A stretch of 11,893 nt of DNA from Chitinophagaceae bacterium (GTDB lineage: Bacteria > Bacteroidota > Bacteroidia > Chitinophagales > Chitinophagaceae), in the NCBI GenBank assembly GCA_023251335.1, contig JAHEZA010000031.1, positions 1-11,893 on the forward strand. Direction: 5' to 3'. Shown piece after piece: positions 5,934-11,696 of this stretch. Each line of letters opens with the position of its first letter. Position 1 is the first letter of the stretch. Made by a program: the position numbers and the translations under genes. The notes beneath the pieces were generated by a model. It was given only the letters and a program-made list of their open reading frames with translations, was not told the DNA's origin and searched no databases.

Positions 5934-6000
5934 CAAAAGTAGGTTTACATCCAAGTCAGCTTGTAAGCAGTATCCCTTAATTTTATTTTTTTGTTCCTTA
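5934..6000 (-). promoter_or_regulatory. Promoter E: tandem TRRGK sites plus -7 element for the T9SS gene
   Basis: Read on the - strand, the distal site TAAGGAACAAAAA begins at 6000. The proximal site TAAGGGATACTGC spans 5979-5967, 21 bp further on. After exactly 25 bp the perfect Bacteroidota -7 element TACTTTTG occupies 5941-5934. The predicted transcript leader is about 14 nt. There is no TTG at -33 spacing. The proximal site matches site A in 8 of 13 positions, so this is the weakest sequence match of the five. Both the 25-bp spacing and the 21-bp period fit exactly. Confidence 0.6.
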
Positions 6001-6149
6001 ATTTATCGCCTTCAAGGGCTGCCAGTCTTTAATTCAACCATCATGCTTGTCAACTTGCAGGGACCATAATTTAATTTTTTTAGTAGCTCCCTACAGAACA
6101 CATACAGGCATGCAAAAAATTATAAAATTGATACTGAATTTGTCCCGGC

Positions 6150-6785
6150 TTACTCTCCCGGTTTCACTGGTAATACATAGGCGGGAAGCAATCCATGAGC
6201 TTCTCTGTGGGTGTCGATTACTGAGATAGAATCTTTTGCCTGTGACAAACACATTACGACGCCATTTTTTTCATCAACCCAATAGTTGATAAAGTTTACA
6301 CCGTATTTTTTCTCAACAGCCAGGTCTTTCGCGTGTGCGTCGGCAACATCTTTAGCAGTGACCTTTCCTGCTCCCAGGTAATGAACATCAAGAAAAAATT
6401 TTTTTTGATTAATCAGGCTTGCGGCGGTTCCATCTGTTACCTTGTAAATATACTCAGGCAATAATCCATGTGCTTCCGCATGTGTTTTTCTTATGGACTC
6501 AGTATCGCCGGATGAAGAAAGACAATACACGAGGCCTTTGTCCTCATTAACCCAATACTCAATAAAATGCACACCATATTTTTTTTCCACCGCGAGATCT
6601 TTGGCGTGCGCTTTTGCAACATCTTCGTATTTTACCTTTCCAGGCTCCAACTGATGTACATCTATGTACAGATTTTTTTCTTTTGAACCGCTACCATTTG
6701 AGCCGGGCATACTTTTCTGTGCGTAGGAATACGAGGAGGCAAAACTGAACGCCGTCATCGTGAATAACATAAAAACAGATTTCAT
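6150..6785 (-). CDS. Exported protein with two tandem DUF4242 (SCO4226-like) domains
   Basis: This 211-aa protein has a Sec signal peptide (residues 1-22, cleavage near YAQ) and a Ser/Gly linker, so it should be periplasmic or secreted. Two copies of the same ~77-residue domain follow (39-115 and 130-206). They are identical at 48 of 77 aligned positions and share the exact block HAKDLAVEKKYGV. Histidines and a cysteine are conserved in both copies: His44/135, His60/151, Cys88/179, His102/193, His106/197. The pattern (DVH at the start, Y-W-V-x-E, C-L-S, T-H-x-E-A-H-G-L) is that of DUF4242, whose Streptomyces member SCO4226 has been described as nickel-binding. Metal binding here is inferred only from family and His/Cys content. 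The gene is divergent from the LuxR-type regulator and has promoter C. Confidence 0.83.
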   Translation of the reverse strand: MKSVFMLFTMTAFSFASSYSYAQKSMPGSNGSGSKEKNLYIDVHQLEPGKVKYEDVAKAHAKDLAVEKKYGVHFIEYWVNEDKGLVYCLSSSGDTESIRKTHAEAHGLLPEYIYKVTDGTAASLINQKKFFLDVHYLGAGKVTAKDVADAHAKDLAVEKKYGVNFINYWVDEKNGVVMCLSQAKDSISVIDTHREAHGLLPAYVLPVKPGE

Positions 6786-6826
6786 AATAAATAATTTTAA
6801 ATTTGATAAATGAATTGATTCTGATG

Positions 6827-6894
6827 CAAAGCAACCATTAATGAATTGTTGGCGTTTATGAGGTTTTCCCTATTTTATGAAGACTGTTTCCTCA
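6827..6894 (-). promoter_or_regulatory. Promoter C: tandem TRRGK sites plus -7 element in the divergent DUF4242/regulator gap
   Basis: On the - strand the distal site TGAGGAAACAGTC (6894-6882) is followed 22 bp on by the proximal site TAGGGAAAACCTC (6872-6860). Then come exactly 25 bp and the -7-like TTGCTTTG (6834-6827). The proximal site matches site A at 11 of 13 positions. The leader to the DUF4242 start is about 36 nt. Because this gap is shared with the divergent regulator gene, the same sites could also mediate autoregulation. Confidence 0.68.
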
Positions 6895-6910
6895 TTTTAT
6901 AAAATACAAT

Positions 6911-9508
6911 ATGGAACTGATTGAACGAGATGAATTTTTACGTTTGCTGCAAAAGCATTTTAATAATATTTCGGAAAGTGATGGCCATTGCGTGATGGTA
7001 AGTGGTGAAGCTGGTATCGGTAAAACTGCGCTGGTGAGGGCTTTTTGTAAACAGAAAGAAGATGAGTGCGATATTTTCCTTGGCGCTTGTGATGATTTAT
7101 TTACTCCGCGTCCCCTTGCGCCGTTATACGATGTTATATCCCAGTTAAAAAAGGTTGACTTGACTAAAACTCATTCAGGGAATGATAGAGCAGATTTGTT
7201 TTCAAATTTTTTTGAAGAGTTTAGGAATCGTAAAAAAAAATTTATCCTGGTTTTTGAAGACATACATTGGGCTGATGAGGCAACACTCGATTTTATAAAA
7301 TTTTTTGCAAAGCGCATTTCCGGCATCCCTTGCCTGTTCATTCTTACGTACCGTGATAATGAAATTCATTCAAGGCACCCATTAAGAAATATATTAGGAC
7401 AATTGCCACCTGATTCATTCACCAAAATATCTATCACCCCCTTATCAAAAGAAGCAGTTCAGAAGATGGCGGTAGAGAAGGGATATTCCGGTGAAGACGT
7501 GTTTAGCATTTCGGGGGGAAACCCATTCTACGTAAACGAAATTTTGGCAAGCTATAGCCCTGGAGTTCCTGATAATATTAAAGATTCCATTCTTTCTGTT
7601 TATGAGCGCCAGGAAGAAGGAACCAAGCATGCATGGCAAATATGTTCTGTAATTCCTGAAGGATTAGAGGTTGACCGTTTTGCAACAATCAGGGCTTCGT
7701 GGGATGAAGGTATGGATCATTGTTTTGCCATGAATGTTATCATCGTCAAAAATAATAAAGTTATTTTTAAACATGAATTATACAGACGGACGATTGAAGA
7801 ATCGCTTTCACCCTTTAAGCGTATCGCGCTCAATAGAAAAATACTCGATCTCTTTTTAAATTCTTTTGAAGAAGGAGGAGAGATCGAGCGAATTTTGCAT
7901 TATGCAAAAAATGCTAACGAAAAAGACCTGGTTGTTAAATATGCGCCTCTTGTTGCAAGCAAGGCGGCATGTGTAGGATCGCACATGGAAGCGGCAAAAT
8001 TATTTTTTACTGCTATTGAATATTCCGAGACAAATGATACCGACCAATTGTTGCAATTTTATGAAGGCTATGCTTATGAATGTTACCTTACGAACCAGAT
8101 CCAAAAGGCTATCATCTATACAGAAAAGTCATTAACGCTTTGGAAGGAAAAAAATGATATAGAAAAAACCAGCAATAGTCTTCGCCTGCTTTCACGCCTG
8201 TGGTGGCTGGACAGTAATCGCGAAAACGCAGAAAAATATGCGGAGCAATCGATTGAGATTTTGCATAGTCACCCCCGGACAGCAGCAAAGGCAATGGCCT
8301 TGAGCAATATGGCACAATTGAAGATGTTATTGGATGAACCTGATAAATGTTTAGAGTTGGGTGAAAAAGCAATTGGTATAGCAACGGAGGTAGGTGCTGA
8401 AGAAGCGCTATCTCATGCACTGAATAATGTTGGAACCGTGCTGATGGATATGCCGGCATCAAAGGAAAAAGGTATTAGACTTTTACAGGAAAGCCTGGCG
8501 ATTGCTTTAAAAAACTCTTTTCATGAACATGCTGCAAGGGCTTATTCTAACCTGGCAAGTAATGGAGTGAAACTGAAGGATTATGCATTTGCAAAAAAAA
8601 TATTAGACGAAGGGGTACTCTATTGTGAAGAGAGGGATTTGGATTCCTGGCGATTGAACATGATGTCGCTGAAAGCAATCGTATATCTCGAGACAGGCGA
8701 TTGGATTAAGGCTTATAGCATTGCAGACAACCTGTTAAAGACTGAAGATAAGCCACGCGCCTTTAAAATTAGAGCGCTGATCGTTGTTTCCAAAATAAAA
8801 CTGCGTACAGGTGATGCCGATCCACTTTCCTTATTGCAGAATGCGGAATCAAAGGCTTTTGAAACGATGGAATTGCAAAGAATTATTCCACTGTTGATAG
8901 CATTCTTAGAATATGAATGGTTAACAGGAAAGGCTTGCATTAGACCCGAAAATCTTGCGTGGATCATTAAAAGAATTGACCATTCAATCTACAGTGCTGA
9001 AAACAGTGAATTTGCTTTTTGGTTGCGGAAAGCAAGAAAGCAACATCTGCAGCTAAAAGAAATAAATGAAGAATATGACGTAAGCACAGTAAAAATGGCA
9101 CTGAAAGCAGCCGAAATATGGAAGAGATCAGGTTGCCCATACCAACAAGCCATTTCATTGTCAGAAGGAAATGAGGACGATAAAAAAAGTGCGCTTGTGA
9201 TTTTCCAGCAATTGGGCGCAAAAGCAATAGGCGAAAAAATAAAAATGGAAATGCGTGCCAGTGGTATTAAAAATATTCCCAGAGGTATCAGAGAAAGCAC
9301 AAAGGCAAATCCCGCCCAACTCACTAATCGCGAACTTGAAATAATCTATCTATTACAGAAAGCTGTCCATAATAAGGAAATTGCTGACATGCTTTTTATT
9401 TCACCTAAAACCGTTGATAATCATATTTCCAGCATACTATTTAAGTTGGATGTAAATTCACGTTCAAAAGCTGTTGTTGAAGCACGTCGTTTGGGCATTC
9501 TAAATTAA
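6911..9508 (+). CDS. ATPase/TPR/LuxR-type transcriptional regulator (LAL/MalT-like architecture)
   Basis: This 865-aa cytoplasmic regulator has three parts. The N-terminal AAA/STAND-type ATPase carries Walker A GEAGIGKT (32-39) and Walker B FILVFED (111-117) followed by IHWAD. SGGNPFYVNE (201-210) is typical of the AAA_16/LuxR ATPases. A long alpha-helical region of TPR-like repeats covers roughly residues 330-700 and is the likely signal-sensing or assembly part. A LuxR/GerE helix-turn-helix occupies about 803-850 (LTNRELEII, NKEIADMLFISPKTVDNH, KLDV). There is no receiver or PAS domain. Proteins of this plan, such as MalT, bind ATP and an effector, multimerise, and occupy tandem direct-repeat sites. 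It lies in the centre of five promoters with tandem direct-repeat sites and is their best candidate activator (inference). It has no clear -7 element of its own. Confidence 0.92.
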   Translation: MELIERDEFLRLLQKHFNNISESDGHCVMVSGEAGIGKTALVRAFCKQKEDECDIFLGACDDLFTPRPLAPLYDVISQLKKVDLTKTHSGNDRADLFSNFFEEFRNRKKKFILVFEDIHWADEATLDFIKFFAKRISGIPCLFILTYRDNEIHSRHPLRNILGQLPPDSFTKISITPLSKEAVQKMAVEKGYSGEDVFSISGGNPFYVNEILASYSPGVPDNIKDSILSVYERQEEGTKHAWQICSVIPEGLEVDRFATIRASWDEGMDHCFAMNVIIVKNNKVIFKHELYRRTIEESLSPFKRIALNRKILDLFLNSFEEGGEIERILHYAKNANEKDLVVKYAPLVASKAACVGSHMEAAKLFFTAIEYSETNDTDQLLQFYEGYAYECYLTNQIQKAIIYTEKSLTLWKEKNDIEKTSNSLRLLSRLWWLDSNRENAEKYAEQSIEILHSHPRTAAKAMALSNMAQLKMLLDEPDKCLELGEKAIGIATEVGAEEALSHALNNVGTVLMDMPASKEKGIRLLQESLAIALKNSFHEHAARAYSNLASNGVKLKDYAFAKKILDEGVLYCEERDLDSWRLNMMSLKAIVYLETGDWIKAYSIADNLLKTEDKPRAFKIRALIVVSKIKLRTGDADPLSLLQNAESKAFETMELQRIIPLLIAFLEYEWLTGKACIRPENLAWIIKRIDHSIYSAENSEFAFWLRKARKQHLQLKEINEEYDVSTVKMALKAAEIWKRSGCPYQQAISLSEGNEDDKKSALVIFQQLGAKAIGEKIKMEMRASGIKNIPRGIRESTKANPAQLTNRELEIIYLLQKAVHNKEIADMLFISPKTVDNHISSILFKLDVNSRSKAVVEARRLGILN

Positions 9509-9573
9509 GGCGGGGCTTCTCATTAAATAGGTAAAATTCCTTAGTTTATTATGCCATGAGGAAAATAACTTTA
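9506..9573 (+). promoter_or_regulatory. Promoter D: tandem TRRGK sites plus -7 element for the single-domain DUF4242 gene
   Basis: The distal site TAAGGCGGGGCTT begins at 9506 and includes the regulator's TAA stop codon. The proximal site TAGGTAAAATTCC (9528-9540) follows at a 22-bp period. Exactly 25 bp later comes TAACTTTA (9566-9573), which matches TAnnTTTG at 7 of 8 positions. The leader is about 20 nt. The proximal site shares TAGGTAA with site B but is less similar afterwards (9 of 13). Confidence 0.6.
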
Positions 9574-9599
9574 TTCCTTAAATTAAAAAATTATTAAAA

Positions 9600-9875
9600 A
9601 TGAAAAAGTTTATTATTGAAAGAAATGTGCCTGGTGCAGGTAACATGACTTCAGAAGAATTACAGGAAATATCAAAAACGTCAAATGCTGTTATATCGGT
9701 GCTGGGCAAACCGTATATCTGGATCGAATCCTTCGTTACCGCGGACAAAATTTATTGTATTCATGAGGCAGAAGATGAAGATGATATTAAAGAACATGGA
9801 AAATGCGGAAATTTCCCGGTTGACAAAATTGAAGAAATAAAAGCAGTGATAAGTCCTGCCACCGAAAAAGGTTGA
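9600..9875 (+). CDS. Cytoplasmic single-domain DUF4242 protein (SCO4226-like)
   Basis: This 91-aa soluble protein has no signal peptide. It fits the single-domain DUF4242 pattern: MKKFIIER with an early Pro-Gly-Ala-Gly, SEELQEIS, a central W-I-E-S-F-V-T-x-D-K-I-Y-C stretch (41-53), His66, and FPVDKI (72-77). It belongs to a different branch of the family from the exported two-domain protein at 6150-6785, which shows the DVH and HAKDL motifs that this one lacks. The biochemical role is unknown, and metal binding can only be suggested from the family name. The gene follows the LuxR-type regulator by 91 nt, has its own promoter-like element (promoter D), and ends in a strong terminator, so it can be a monocistronic unit. 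Read-through from the regulator is also possible. Confidence 0.83.
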   Translation: MKKFIIERNVPGAGNMTSEELQEISKTSNAVISVLGKPYIWIESFVTADKIYCIHEAEDEDDIKEHGKCGNFPVDKIEEIKAVISPATEKG

Positions 9876-9950
9876 TATAAAAGGCATAGGAATATTTCTG
9901 AATTAAATTTAAAAGAAAAAAAACATTAATAGCATTTTTGTTCAATGGAG

Positions 9951-9982
9951 AGAGACAGGATTTGAATCCTGTCTTTTTTTTT
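9951..9982 (+). terminator. Strong intrinsic terminator after the DUF4242 gene
   Basis: GACAGGATT (9954-9962) and AATCCTGTC (9965-9973) form a perfect 9-bp stem with a two-base TG centre, extendable by outer A-T pairs. Nine consecutive T follow (9974-9982). It separates the regulator/DUF4242 unit from promoter A. Confidence 0.85.
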
Positions 9983-10046
9983 GAATGCAAGAGAGTTCGA
10001 ATTAGAGCATCGCACAAAATCAAGAGGGAAATCTGTGTAACTAAAA

Positions 10047-10113
10047 TGAGGATTTTTTATAAATAATTAGGGAATAACTCTCAGTACAATTAAAAACGGC
10101 CGATGCAATTTTG
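10047..10113 (+). promoter_or_regulatory. Promoter A: tandem TRRGK sites plus -7 element for the PepSY-like gene
   Basis: The distal site TGAGGATTTTTTA begins at 10047. The proximal site TAGGGAATAACTC (10068-10080) follows at a 21-bp period. Then come exactly 25 bp and the -7-like CAATTTTG (10106-10113). The leader is about 38 nt. The block ATAATTAGGGAATAACTC (10063-10080) matches promoter B at 17 of 18 bases. The 11-mer CAATTTTGTAT is identical in A and B at the same distance. There is no TTG at the -33 spacing, suggesting dependence on an activator. Confidence 0.72.
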
Positions 10114-10156
10114 TATCTAATATTTATCAAAAATTATTCAATCAAAAATTAAAAAA

Positions 10157-10705
10157 ATGAAAACATTTCTTTTTGCCTTTGTAGCGGGAACAATTTCCGC
10201 ATTGTCACTTACAATTGGAGCATTTGCACAAACATCAAACAAAGTGAAAGTATTTGAAGCCCTAAGTACTGTTGTTATAGACAGCAATGTGAAAGTAGCA
10301 GTAAATAAAATAGCAAGCTTTGATGAAATCAATCCCAGAGCATTAAGCAACTTCAAGAAAACTTATAAAGATGCTGATGACGTTAAATGGCACAGGTATA
10401 ATAATGTAATTACTGCAGAATTTGTATCTAATGGAATTAATACCAGGGCATATTATAATACTAAAGGAATTTGGACGGCTTCCATAAAAGCCTACCAGGA
10501 AGAAAAATTAGAGTCAAAAATCCGTAACGAGGTAAAACGCACTTACTACGATTATAAAATCATTTGCATTCGTGAATTAGAAACTATTAGTTCTGATGGT
10601 ATACCAACTTATTTTGTCTACATCAAAGACGAAACCAATTTTAAGATATTAAGAATCTGGGATTTGCAGATAGACATTTTTCAACAATTTATCCAACAAA
10701 ATTAG
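10157..10705 (+). CDS. Exported PepSY-like (BLIP-fold-like) protein
   Basis: This 182-aa protein has a clear Sec signal peptide (residues 1-24, cleavage at AFA-Q) and no lipobox, so it is probably periplasmic. The mature part resembles the PepSY-like/DUF2874 proteins of Bacteroidota. Their pattern of an early F-x-x-x-Y-x-D-A-x-x-V-K-W, then I-T-A-E-F-V-S-N-G and A-Y-Y-N-T-K-G-I-W-T-A, is seen at about 67-107. A later Y-x-x-Y-K-I and T-Y-F-V-Y-I pair of strands lies around 129-156. The assignment is by eye and moderate in strength. No catalytic site is visible; such domains are thought to bind proteins or peptides. The gene stands between a strong terminator and the ECF sigma factor gene, and shares a nearly identical promoter with the latter. 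Confidence 0.62.
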   Translation: MKTFLFAFVAGTISALSLTIGAFAQTSNKVKVFEALSTVVIDSNVKVAVNKIASFDEINPRALSNFKKTYKDADDVKWHRYNNVITAEFVSNGINTRAYYNTKGIWTASIKAYQEEKLESKIRNEVKRTYYDYKIICIRELETISSDGIPTYFVYIKDETNFKILRIWDLQIDIFQQFIQQN

Positions 10706-10798
10706 AATTCAGAATGGGCATTAAGCTTTAAGCGGCAATCAAAAATTTTGTGCGAACCTATAGAACTAATGCCAGCATAAAAATGGCCAATAATAAAA

Positions 10799-10865
10799 TA
10801 GGGGATTTACCAAAATAATTAGGTAATAACTCATATAACGGTCACGAATTGTCATCCCAATTTTG
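10799..10865 (+). promoter_or_regulatory. Promoter B: tandem TRRGK sites plus -7 element upstream of the ECF sigma gene
   Basis: The distal site TAGGGGATTTACC begins at 10799. The proximal site TAGGTAATAACTC (10820-10832) follows at a 21-bp period. Exactly 25 bp later comes CAATTTTG (10858-10865). It differs from promoter A by one base in the 18-bp block at 10815-10832 and shares the CAATTTTGTAT 11-mer. The next long gene starts about 230 nt downstream, much further than in the other four cases. Confidence 0.7.
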
Positions 10866-11093: not shown

Positions 11094-11696
11094 TTGCAAA
11101 CAAATAATAAACTGGAAGACATTGTAAAAGGATGCATTAGCTTAAGCCGTGAAAGTCAACATCATCTTTATCGCTATTTTTATAGTTTTTGCTTTCGTTC
11201 TTGTGCCGTGTATTGCCAAACCAATGATGACGCCCTTGAAGTAGTAAATGATGGGTTCTTGAAAATATTTAAGGAATTAAAGAATTTCAAGCCCCGGTAT
11301 GAAAACTTTGAAATTTCTCTAAACGGTTGGATCAAACGAATAATGATAAATACTGCTATTGATCATTATAGAAAGAATAAGAGCCATTACCCGACAGTTT
11401 ATCCCGGAGCTAACATATTAGAAGTGGCATCCGGTGAATCTTCCGCGATAGATATGTTATCCCATAAAGAAATTATCAAGCTTGTTCAACAGTTGTCGCC
11501 ATCTTACCGAATTGTATTTAGCCTCTACGTAATTCACGGATTTAAACACGAAGAAATTGCCAGGGAACTAAATATTTCGATCGGTACTTCCAAATCAAAC
11601 CTTGCTAAAGCAAGGCTGAATATTCAAAAAATGATCTTGGTGGGATCGGGAAAGCTTGTCGCCAGTCGTGAAAATGAAGTGTCGTATTCAATTTGA
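11094..11696 (+). CDS. ECF-type RNA polymerase sigma factor
   Basis: This is a 200-aa sigma-70 family factor of the extracytoplasmic-function group, with only regions 2 and 4. Region 2 spans about 24-97, with DDALEVVNDGFLKIFKELKNF (core binding) and WIKRIMINTAIDHYRKNK (-10 recognition). Region 4 spans about 126-180, with LSPSYRIVFSLYVIHGF, HEEIARELNISIGTSKSNL and a basic AKARLNIQK end. The start is a TTG: the frame is closed upstream at 11058-11060 and has no ATG before region 2, so TTG at 11094 (MQTNNKLED) is the best choice. No FecR-type anti-sigma gene follows within the visible 197 nt. Its promoter (B) is of the shared architecture, so it may relay the signal of the LuxR-type regulator to further genes. 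Confidence 0.9.
   Translation: MQTNNKLEDIVKGCISLSRESQHHLYRYFYSFCFRSCAVYCQTNDDALEVVNDGFLKIFKELKNFKPRYENFEISLNGWIKRIMINTAIDHYRKNKSHYPTVYPGANILEVASGESSAIDMLSHKEIIKLVQQLSPSYRIVFSLYVIHGFKHEEIARELNISIGTSKSNLAKARLNIQKMILVGSGKLVASRENEVSYSI

Follow-up and report, generated by a model that had tools for sequence, protein, structure and literature searches.

Do the promoters that surround a regulator gene answer to the protein which that gene encodes? The question is raised by an 11,893-nucleotide stretch of DNA from a member of the Chitinophagaceae, referred to here as the window, which makes up the whole of contig G000:C203 in a genome of 671 contigs, 3.40 Mb and 85.8% completeness. An initial annotation had proposed that five genes of the window share a promoter element, two direct repeats followed at a fixed distance by a box, and form the regulon of a LuxR-type ATPase encoded in their middle (Table 1). 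This ATPase belongs to the large ATP-binding regulators of the LuxR family (LAL). The proposal was supported by comparison across genomes. A sequence-only model of the element (R1) matched 15 of 16 genomes with the regulator and none of 32 without it (E ≤ 0.001), and the element preceded 14/14 examined genes for two-domain SCO4226-like proteins in regulator carriers and 0/9 in regulator-free genomes.

The element and its promoter geometry

The five proximal 13-mers were found at the 5' positions claimed for them, 10068 (site A), 10820 (B) and 9528 (D) on the forward strand and 6872 (C) and 5979 (E) on the reverse strand, and each was followed after exactly 25 bp by the 8-mer quoted for it. All 10 half-sites match TRRGK, with a repeat spacing of 21 bp in three pairs and 22 bp in two. 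The extent of the half-site had to be revised, as its conserved part begins five bases earlier (TAAAA). Sites D and E had been considered weaker than A, B and C. This does not hold for the pattern, which both fit in full; D recurs before the orthologous gene, and E was without a counterpart before the homologue in L003. The element is also present before the L003 homologue of the gene downstream of site A and, as a counterpart of site B, upstream of the extracytoplasmic function (ECF) sigma factor gene in L083.

The strict pattern TAAAWTRRGKN{16,17}TRRGKN{36,38}TTTR was found five times in the window and never in 200 dinucleotide shuffles. In the 3.40-Mb source genome it matched five times, every time in the window, and the reversed pattern did not match. 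The pattern was written after sites in several genomes had been seen, so the cross-genome tests are the cleaner ones.

Alignment of 27 sites gave the consensus TAAAATRGGGAA, a repeat-to-repeat distance of 21 or 22 bp, TWAAATAGGGAAWAMCTC, 25 bp and TWNYTTTG. The half-site of 12 bp is asymmetric and not palindromic, which would suit monomers bound in tandem. Tandem direct repeats at 21 or 22 bp were present in 27/27 aligned sites, which had been selected for this feature; independent support comes from the scan with the five-site matrix described below. In a grid of spacings, 29 of 35 raw matches fell at 21 or 22 bp with a 25-bp gap; among the matches in which AAA or AAT precedes the repeat, 27 had this arrangement, three had a 24-bp gap and one had a 23-bp repeat spacing. 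The gap described as fixed at 25 bp is so in all five window sites and is 24 bp in a few sites of other genomes.

Bacteroidota housekeeping sigma promoters have a -33 TTG element. TTG was found within -39 to -31 in 2 of the 27 sites; its reported absence near -33 is true of the five window sites and not of the element overall. The box contained TTT in 27/27 and the following G in 25/27 sites (TTTR was required by the search), and its leading TA was poorly kept. For Flavobacterium psychrophilum, TAnnTTTG is placed at -12 to -5 in PMC9723704. By this rule, the 12-mers of site A would span -76 to -65 and -55 to -44, and transcription is predicted to start near 10118 (A), 10870 (B), 6822 (C), 9578 (D) and 5929 (E).

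Co-occurrence of the element with the regulator

The regulator was sought in 294 genomes of the family, representing 101 genera (E ≤ 1e-30, best three candidates scored per genome), and among 396 genomes sampled across the order (E ≤ 1e-100). It was found in 15 of the 294 family genomes, the source genome counted, and in 13 of the 101 genera, and its relatives in the 14 other family genomes shared 50-63% identity. One further record (VBAS01000041.1) contained it, as did one genome outside the family (G528, 41% identity), indicating that regulator and element occur in two families of one order. Its distribution is patchy, as it was not found in the five other sampled genomes of the same genus (E ≤ 1e-30). 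The Pfam matches of the window protein were AAA_16 (1.5e-20), the tetratricopeptide repeat (TPR) family TPR_12 (2.7e-13) and GerE (4.2e-15, residues 803-857). GEAGIGKT or a close variant is present in the aligned members that reach that region, and the most conserved 50-amino-acid (aa) block is that of the helix-turn-helix (0.82 versus 0.79 for the next block). One copy of the regulator gene (G064:C70:119985-122564, L004) contains one in-frame TAA, yet its two adjoining sites are kept.

The initial annotation had proposed that a matrix be built from the five regions and related genomes be scanned with it. Such a matrix, derived from no sites but the five of the window and with the 21/22- and 25-bp geometry, was applied to 279,429 bases in 19 loci, drawn from 16 further genomes or records that carry the regulator. 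At least one site scoring 20 or more was found in each of the 16. In total, 39 matches scored at least 16, and the 35 rows at 20 or above represent 34 distinct sites, as the L084 site appeared in two neighboring registers and was counted once. The four rows between 16 and 20 comprised two shifted registers, one likely site (19.9, L023) and one background-like match (18.6, L021). The same matrix gave two matches of at least 16 on first-order Markov sequence (2,235,432 strand-bases; maximum, 17.4) and one match, scoring 16.1, on ten regulator-free loci (91,949 bases). A matrix of all 27 sites gave no match of at least 14 in these ten loci and detected sites in L086, L126 and L127.

Model R1 was built from the 27 sites over 75 columns, and the best 150 candidates were scored per genome. 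At E ≤ 0.001 it gave 39 matches, of which 31 are no more than about 2.1 kb from the regulator gene and the remaining eight sit on different contigs. Those on other contigs of G038 precede a two-domain SCO4226-like gene followed by a gene of lipoprotein-like family 3, a divergent ECF sigma factor gene, the gene for a 68-aa lipoprotein-like product and that for a TauE-like exporter. Two further two-domain SCO4226-like genes are preceded by such sites in G129 and G077, a small open reading frame (ORF) followed by the gene for a cytochrome-like protein in G158, and an unknown lipoprotein-like gene in G120. The source genome yielded the five window sites, followed by two weak matches outside this contig (E 0.012 and 0.038). 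At E ≤ 0.1, 13 of the 32 regulator-free genomes had a match, the best at 0.00235.

The strict pattern matched 26 times in 13 of 15 carrier genomes, and its reversed control matched twice. Of the 26 matches, 21 are at the regulator locus, three are in G038, away from the regulator contig and before regulon-type genes, and two are background-like (G272:C1:372076 and G064:C12). Among all 294 family genomes, 51 had matches; 38 of the 279 regulator-free genomes contributed 41. As the reversed control gave about 80 matches in these 279 genomes, the 41 represent no excess. The genome-wide enrichment expected of a regulon was seen only in part: a few further sites turned up elsewhere in other genomes, but in the source genome the regulon is local and all five strict matches lie in the window.

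The 14 and 9 two-domain genes compared are those that were examined; the carriers contain at least 14, one of which is the window's own gene, a training case. The box ends 18-44 bp before the start of the 14 carrier genes. The weakest carrier site scored 23.8, versus 7.2 for the best regulator-free upstream region. Three of the 14 genes (L083, L126 and L127) are on a contig other than that of the regulator. The nine regulator-free genes include L121, whose promoter may lie past the contig end; without it, the count used in the Fisher test is 0/8. L125 (G152:C123) was left out of the comparison, since its ORF is cut by a contig end and reads like a fusion of PF14026, the SCO4226-like domain, to AraC. 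Single-domain genes beside the regulator behaved similarly: 11 of 12 scored at least 25, and the L003 site is diverged (15.1). G158 and G120 encode the regulator and have four and two sites, respectively (R1, E ≤ 0.001), with no PF14026 among the matches listed. Since the element tracks the regulator across genomes, these two included, the regulator is very probably its cognate factor. The G013 regulator has R in place of the usual H in 'VDHHISS' together with a diverged site. This one case is no more than suggestive of coevolution between the DNA-contact helix and the motif; the window's own protein has N at this position.

Among the 16 regulator genes whose 3' end is visible, 13 have their stop codon inside the distal half-site (window, 9501-9508; L003, L021-L028 and L031-L033). 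The last codons, the stop and the next bases read TAAAATAG-GG or TAAATTAR-GG. The exceptions are G120 and G013, where no single-domain gene follows in the locus, and G528, where the site lies farther downstream. In G158 and G081, the overlap is kept before other genes, though the single-domain gene is not beside the regulator. Conservation of the distal repeat at these promoters could partly stem from the last residues of the protein; the proximal repeat and the box are non-coding.

Proposed mechanism and alternatives

Taken together, the data are best explained by a LAL activator that acts on tandem repeats and drives a mostly local regulon, a reading to which we assign a probability of about 0.8. 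The 865-aa protein, with its ATPase of the STAND type (signal transduction ATPases with numerous domains), TPRs and LuxR/GerE helix-turn-helix, would be a ligand-switched activator that binds head-to-tail on two direct repeats two helix turns (21-22 bp) apart. With the box at about -12 to -5, the repeats would sit just upstream of the position of the -33 element. As this element is lacking, the promoters should depend on an activator, which may bring in the housekeeping sigma holoenzyme, in the manner of a class II activator, by a contact that the nearly constant spacing of 25 bp would fix. The predicted regulon would comprise the secreted two-domain and the single-domain SCO4226-like proteins, secreted and type IX-secreted proteins and the ECF sigma factor, which may provide a second regulatory tier. 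As a guess at the inducer, the weak nickel binding of SCO4226 in Streptomyces may be a pointer, and the SCO4226-like domains may be sensory partners.

Several points weigh against this explanation. Co-occurrence cannot prove direct binding, and another factor that always traveled with the regulator would give the same picture. The 32 regulator-free genomes were chosen, not random (genus mates, sister species and SCO4226 carriers), and some genomes counted as regulator-free are incomplete (G048, 83%; G152, 87%). R1 was trained on sites from carrier genomes, its E-values are rough and its candidates were limited to 150 per genome; its result in carriers is thus partly circular, which the window-matrix test is not. 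The sixteenth carrier, G013, had an R1 match at E 0.0022 only, no better than the best regulator-free match (0.00235), and its site is backed by lying 40 bp upstream of the orthologous gene and by scoring 23.8 with the window matrix. In its 5' half, the box often departs from TA, the first base being T in 13, C in 9 and G in 5 of the 27 sites. Pattern and matrix scans found no counterpart of site E before the homologue in L003, the sole homologous locus, and both site E and the exact target of site B are to be taken as tentative. Not every SCO4226-like gene of a carrier is a target; G272:C1:2307736 and G055:C1:944468, for example, have no adjoining R1 match at E ≤ 0.1. Finally, several carrier assemblies are fragmented, so that a site on another contig need not be distant.

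Other readings of the element were weighed against these data. That the sites are chance likenesses in AT-rich intergenic DNA, picked out by the spacing rule with which D and E had been found, is scarcely credible: it is contradicted by the shuffles, by the confinement of all five strict genome matches to a single 12-kb contig, by the matrix sites in 16/16 genomes or records and by the two-domain genes. The element might instead belong to the SCO4226-like genes, which are its commonest targets, and be bound by an SCO4226-like protein or an unlinked metal sensor; nickel-responsive expression of SCO4226 in Streptomyces, as given in PMC4186839, would fit. The lack of the element before the nine examined two-domain genes of regulator-free genomes (L121 with the reservation above) makes this very improbable, and SCO4226-like proteins are further disfavored as the binder by G158 and G120. 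On the same two grounds, the suggestion that the motif follows the SCO4226-like genes and not the regulator was rejected.

We give equally little credence to the element being the promoter of the ECF sigma factor (11094-11696) and not a LAL operator. In the window and in L003, L026 and L083, an ECF gene lies within or beside the regulon, with the element upstream in two of these, but no ECF homologue was seen in 13 of the 16 regulator loci (some are short), which nevertheless carry the element. Tandem repeats two turns apart and 25 bp before a TTTG box also resemble activator operators with a housekeeping -7 box, not a -35/-10 promoter. Many LuxR-type proteins both activate and repress, and the sign of regulation cannot be read from sites alone, so the regulator might repress all or some of these promoters. 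We regard this as improbable given the repeats upstream of the -33 region, the absence of a -33 TTG in 25/27 sites and the near-fixed -7 spacing, which together match the geometry of activation. An extension of the LAL-activator explanation, in which the locus is a self-contained sensory module, with a MalT-like ATPase, an SCO4226-like co-factor or ligand carrier, secreted SCO4226-like and other targets, an ECF second tier and a distal operator half-site fused to the regulator stop codon, seems unlikely; if true, regulator and first target would move and evolve as one unit.

A LAL activator with a tandem operator is of a known kind; notable here are the overlap with the stop codon and the promoter geometry in Bacteroidota. 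Like MalT, a LAL/STAND activator of Escherichia coli and Klebsiella, the regulator combines an ATPase, repeats and a C-terminal LuxR-type helix-turn-helix, and its target promoters have direct-repeat sites with a G-rich core. Unlike MalT, it reached only 46 bits where the MalT equivalog model requires 537, its best stretch being the helix-turn-helix only, and no maltose genes are among the targets seen here. The MalT box is given in PMC7567727 as GGGGA(T/G)GAGG, with its 5' end at -34.5 to -35.5; in the window the 12-bp half-site replaces it, the sites lie farther upstream and the box resembles the Bacteroidota type. The same source describes a MalT-named regulator of Actinoplanes sp. SE50/110 that, like the regulator proposed here, activates a large local region via a motif at many starts, but this motif, TCATCC-5-GGATGA over -35, is an inverted repeat, in contrast to the direct repeats found here.

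The partial LAL-type architecture and the direct repeats also resemble the SARP-LAL regulators of Streptomyces (SARP, Streptomyces antibiotic regulatory protein). The SARP part is their DNA-binding part and was not among the Pfam matches of the window regulator. Their repeats are reportedly heptameric (PMC5930380). A search of titles and abstracts of open-licence papers found no description of this clade, operator or regulon, and to our knowledge few activator-dependent promoters have been defined in Bacteroidota. From sequence, the locus is predicted to supply a regulator, a 12-bp operator of near-fixed geometry and a small number of targets, so that activation at promoters lacking a -33 element can be put to a direct test. 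The SCO4226-like proteins, little covered in the open-licence papers searched, gain a regulatory context. In PMC4186839, SCO4226 of Streptomyces coelicolor is described as a weak nickel binder whose gene is nickel-responsive; the window proteins share its PF14026 domain, but the 211-aa protein differs in being a predicted secreted tandem of two domains.

Genes of the locus

Table 1. Promoter elements and genes of the window (signal peptides were judged by eye).
Feature	Coordinates	Strand	Description
Site A	10042..10113	+	Tandem repeats and box upstream of the gene for the 182-aa predicted secreted protein
Site B	10794..10865	+	Tandem repeats and box; the next large gene, about 230 bp off, encodes the ECF sigma factor
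Site C	6827..6899	-	Tandem TAAAATRGGGAA-type repeats and box upstream of the two-domain SCO4226-like gene
Site D	9501..9573	+	Tandem repeats and box upstream of the single-domain SCO4226-like gene; regulator stop codon (9506-9508) in distal repeat
Site E	5934..6005	-	Tandem repeats and box upstream of the gene for the type IX sorting-tail protein
LAL-type regulator, 865 aa	6911..9508	+	AAA_16 ATPase, TPR region, C-terminal LuxR/GerE helix-turn-helix
Two-domain SCO4226-like protein, 211 aa	6150..6785	-	PF14026 (4.7e-41) in two stretches; divergent from regulator; N-terminus reads as signal peptide
Single-domain SCO4226-like protein, 91 aa	9600..9875	+	PF14026 (1.7e-18); no signal peptide by eye
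Predicted secreted protein, 182 aa	10157..10705	+	Signal peptide by eye
ORF, 35 aa	10902-11009		Between site B and the ECF sigma factor gene
ECF-type sigma factor	11094..11696	+	Sigma70_r4_2 (1.1e-14), Sigma70_r2 (7.5e-9)
Secreted protein with type IX secretion sorting tail, 496 aa	4424..5914	-	Por_Secre_tail, PF18962 (6.6e-9)

The recurrent neighbors of the regulator are a divergent two-domain SCO4226-like gene, whose product is predicted to be secreted, and a downstream single-domain SCO4226-like gene; lipoprotein-like family 3, the 182-aa family 4 and an ECF sigma factor are rarer. In the window, the two SCO4226-like proteins scored 139.3 (two-domain) and 67 bits (single-domain) for PF14026, above its gathering score of 28.5. 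Against the SCO4226 equivalog NF033706 (cut-off, 125), the two-domain protein scored 96.9 and the 91-aa protein had no match. The sole solved relative found for the window SCO4226-like protein was 4oi3/4oi6 (E 6.5e-9). No function was obtained from Pfam or NCBIfam for the 182-aa protein, which had no Pfam match; its homologue L027:12938-13474 matched PepSY_like (PF11396) weakly, below the cut-off (E 0.0017). The start codon of the ECF sigma factor gene is uncertain (TTG at 11094). The window had no Rfam match at the gathering score, and a tRNA search of it found none.

Two further groups of genes recur close to the element. Lipoprotein-like proteins of family 3, about 210 aa in length and with the motif LHAWVW..NPDG, are found in the regulon at L027:11605-12228, L083:417-1052, L003:4565-5212 and other places; the two members scanned had no Pfam match above the cut-off, and NCBIfam gave no function for the proteins tested. 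Small cytochrome-like proteins are encoded close to regulon sites at L163:4118-4462, L083:1-327 and L027:12375-12803. The first two contain a C-x5-CH motif, and the one scanned matched PF13442 only at E 0.047.

In L106, an SCO4226-like domain is fused to an AraC-type helix-turn-helix (122-1231), and the fusion gene is followed by a single-domain SCO4226-like gene whose product has an apparent signal peptide (1375-1767). Judging by their coordinates, such pairs probably occur in several genomes, which would make them another regulator family tied to SCO4226-like domains.

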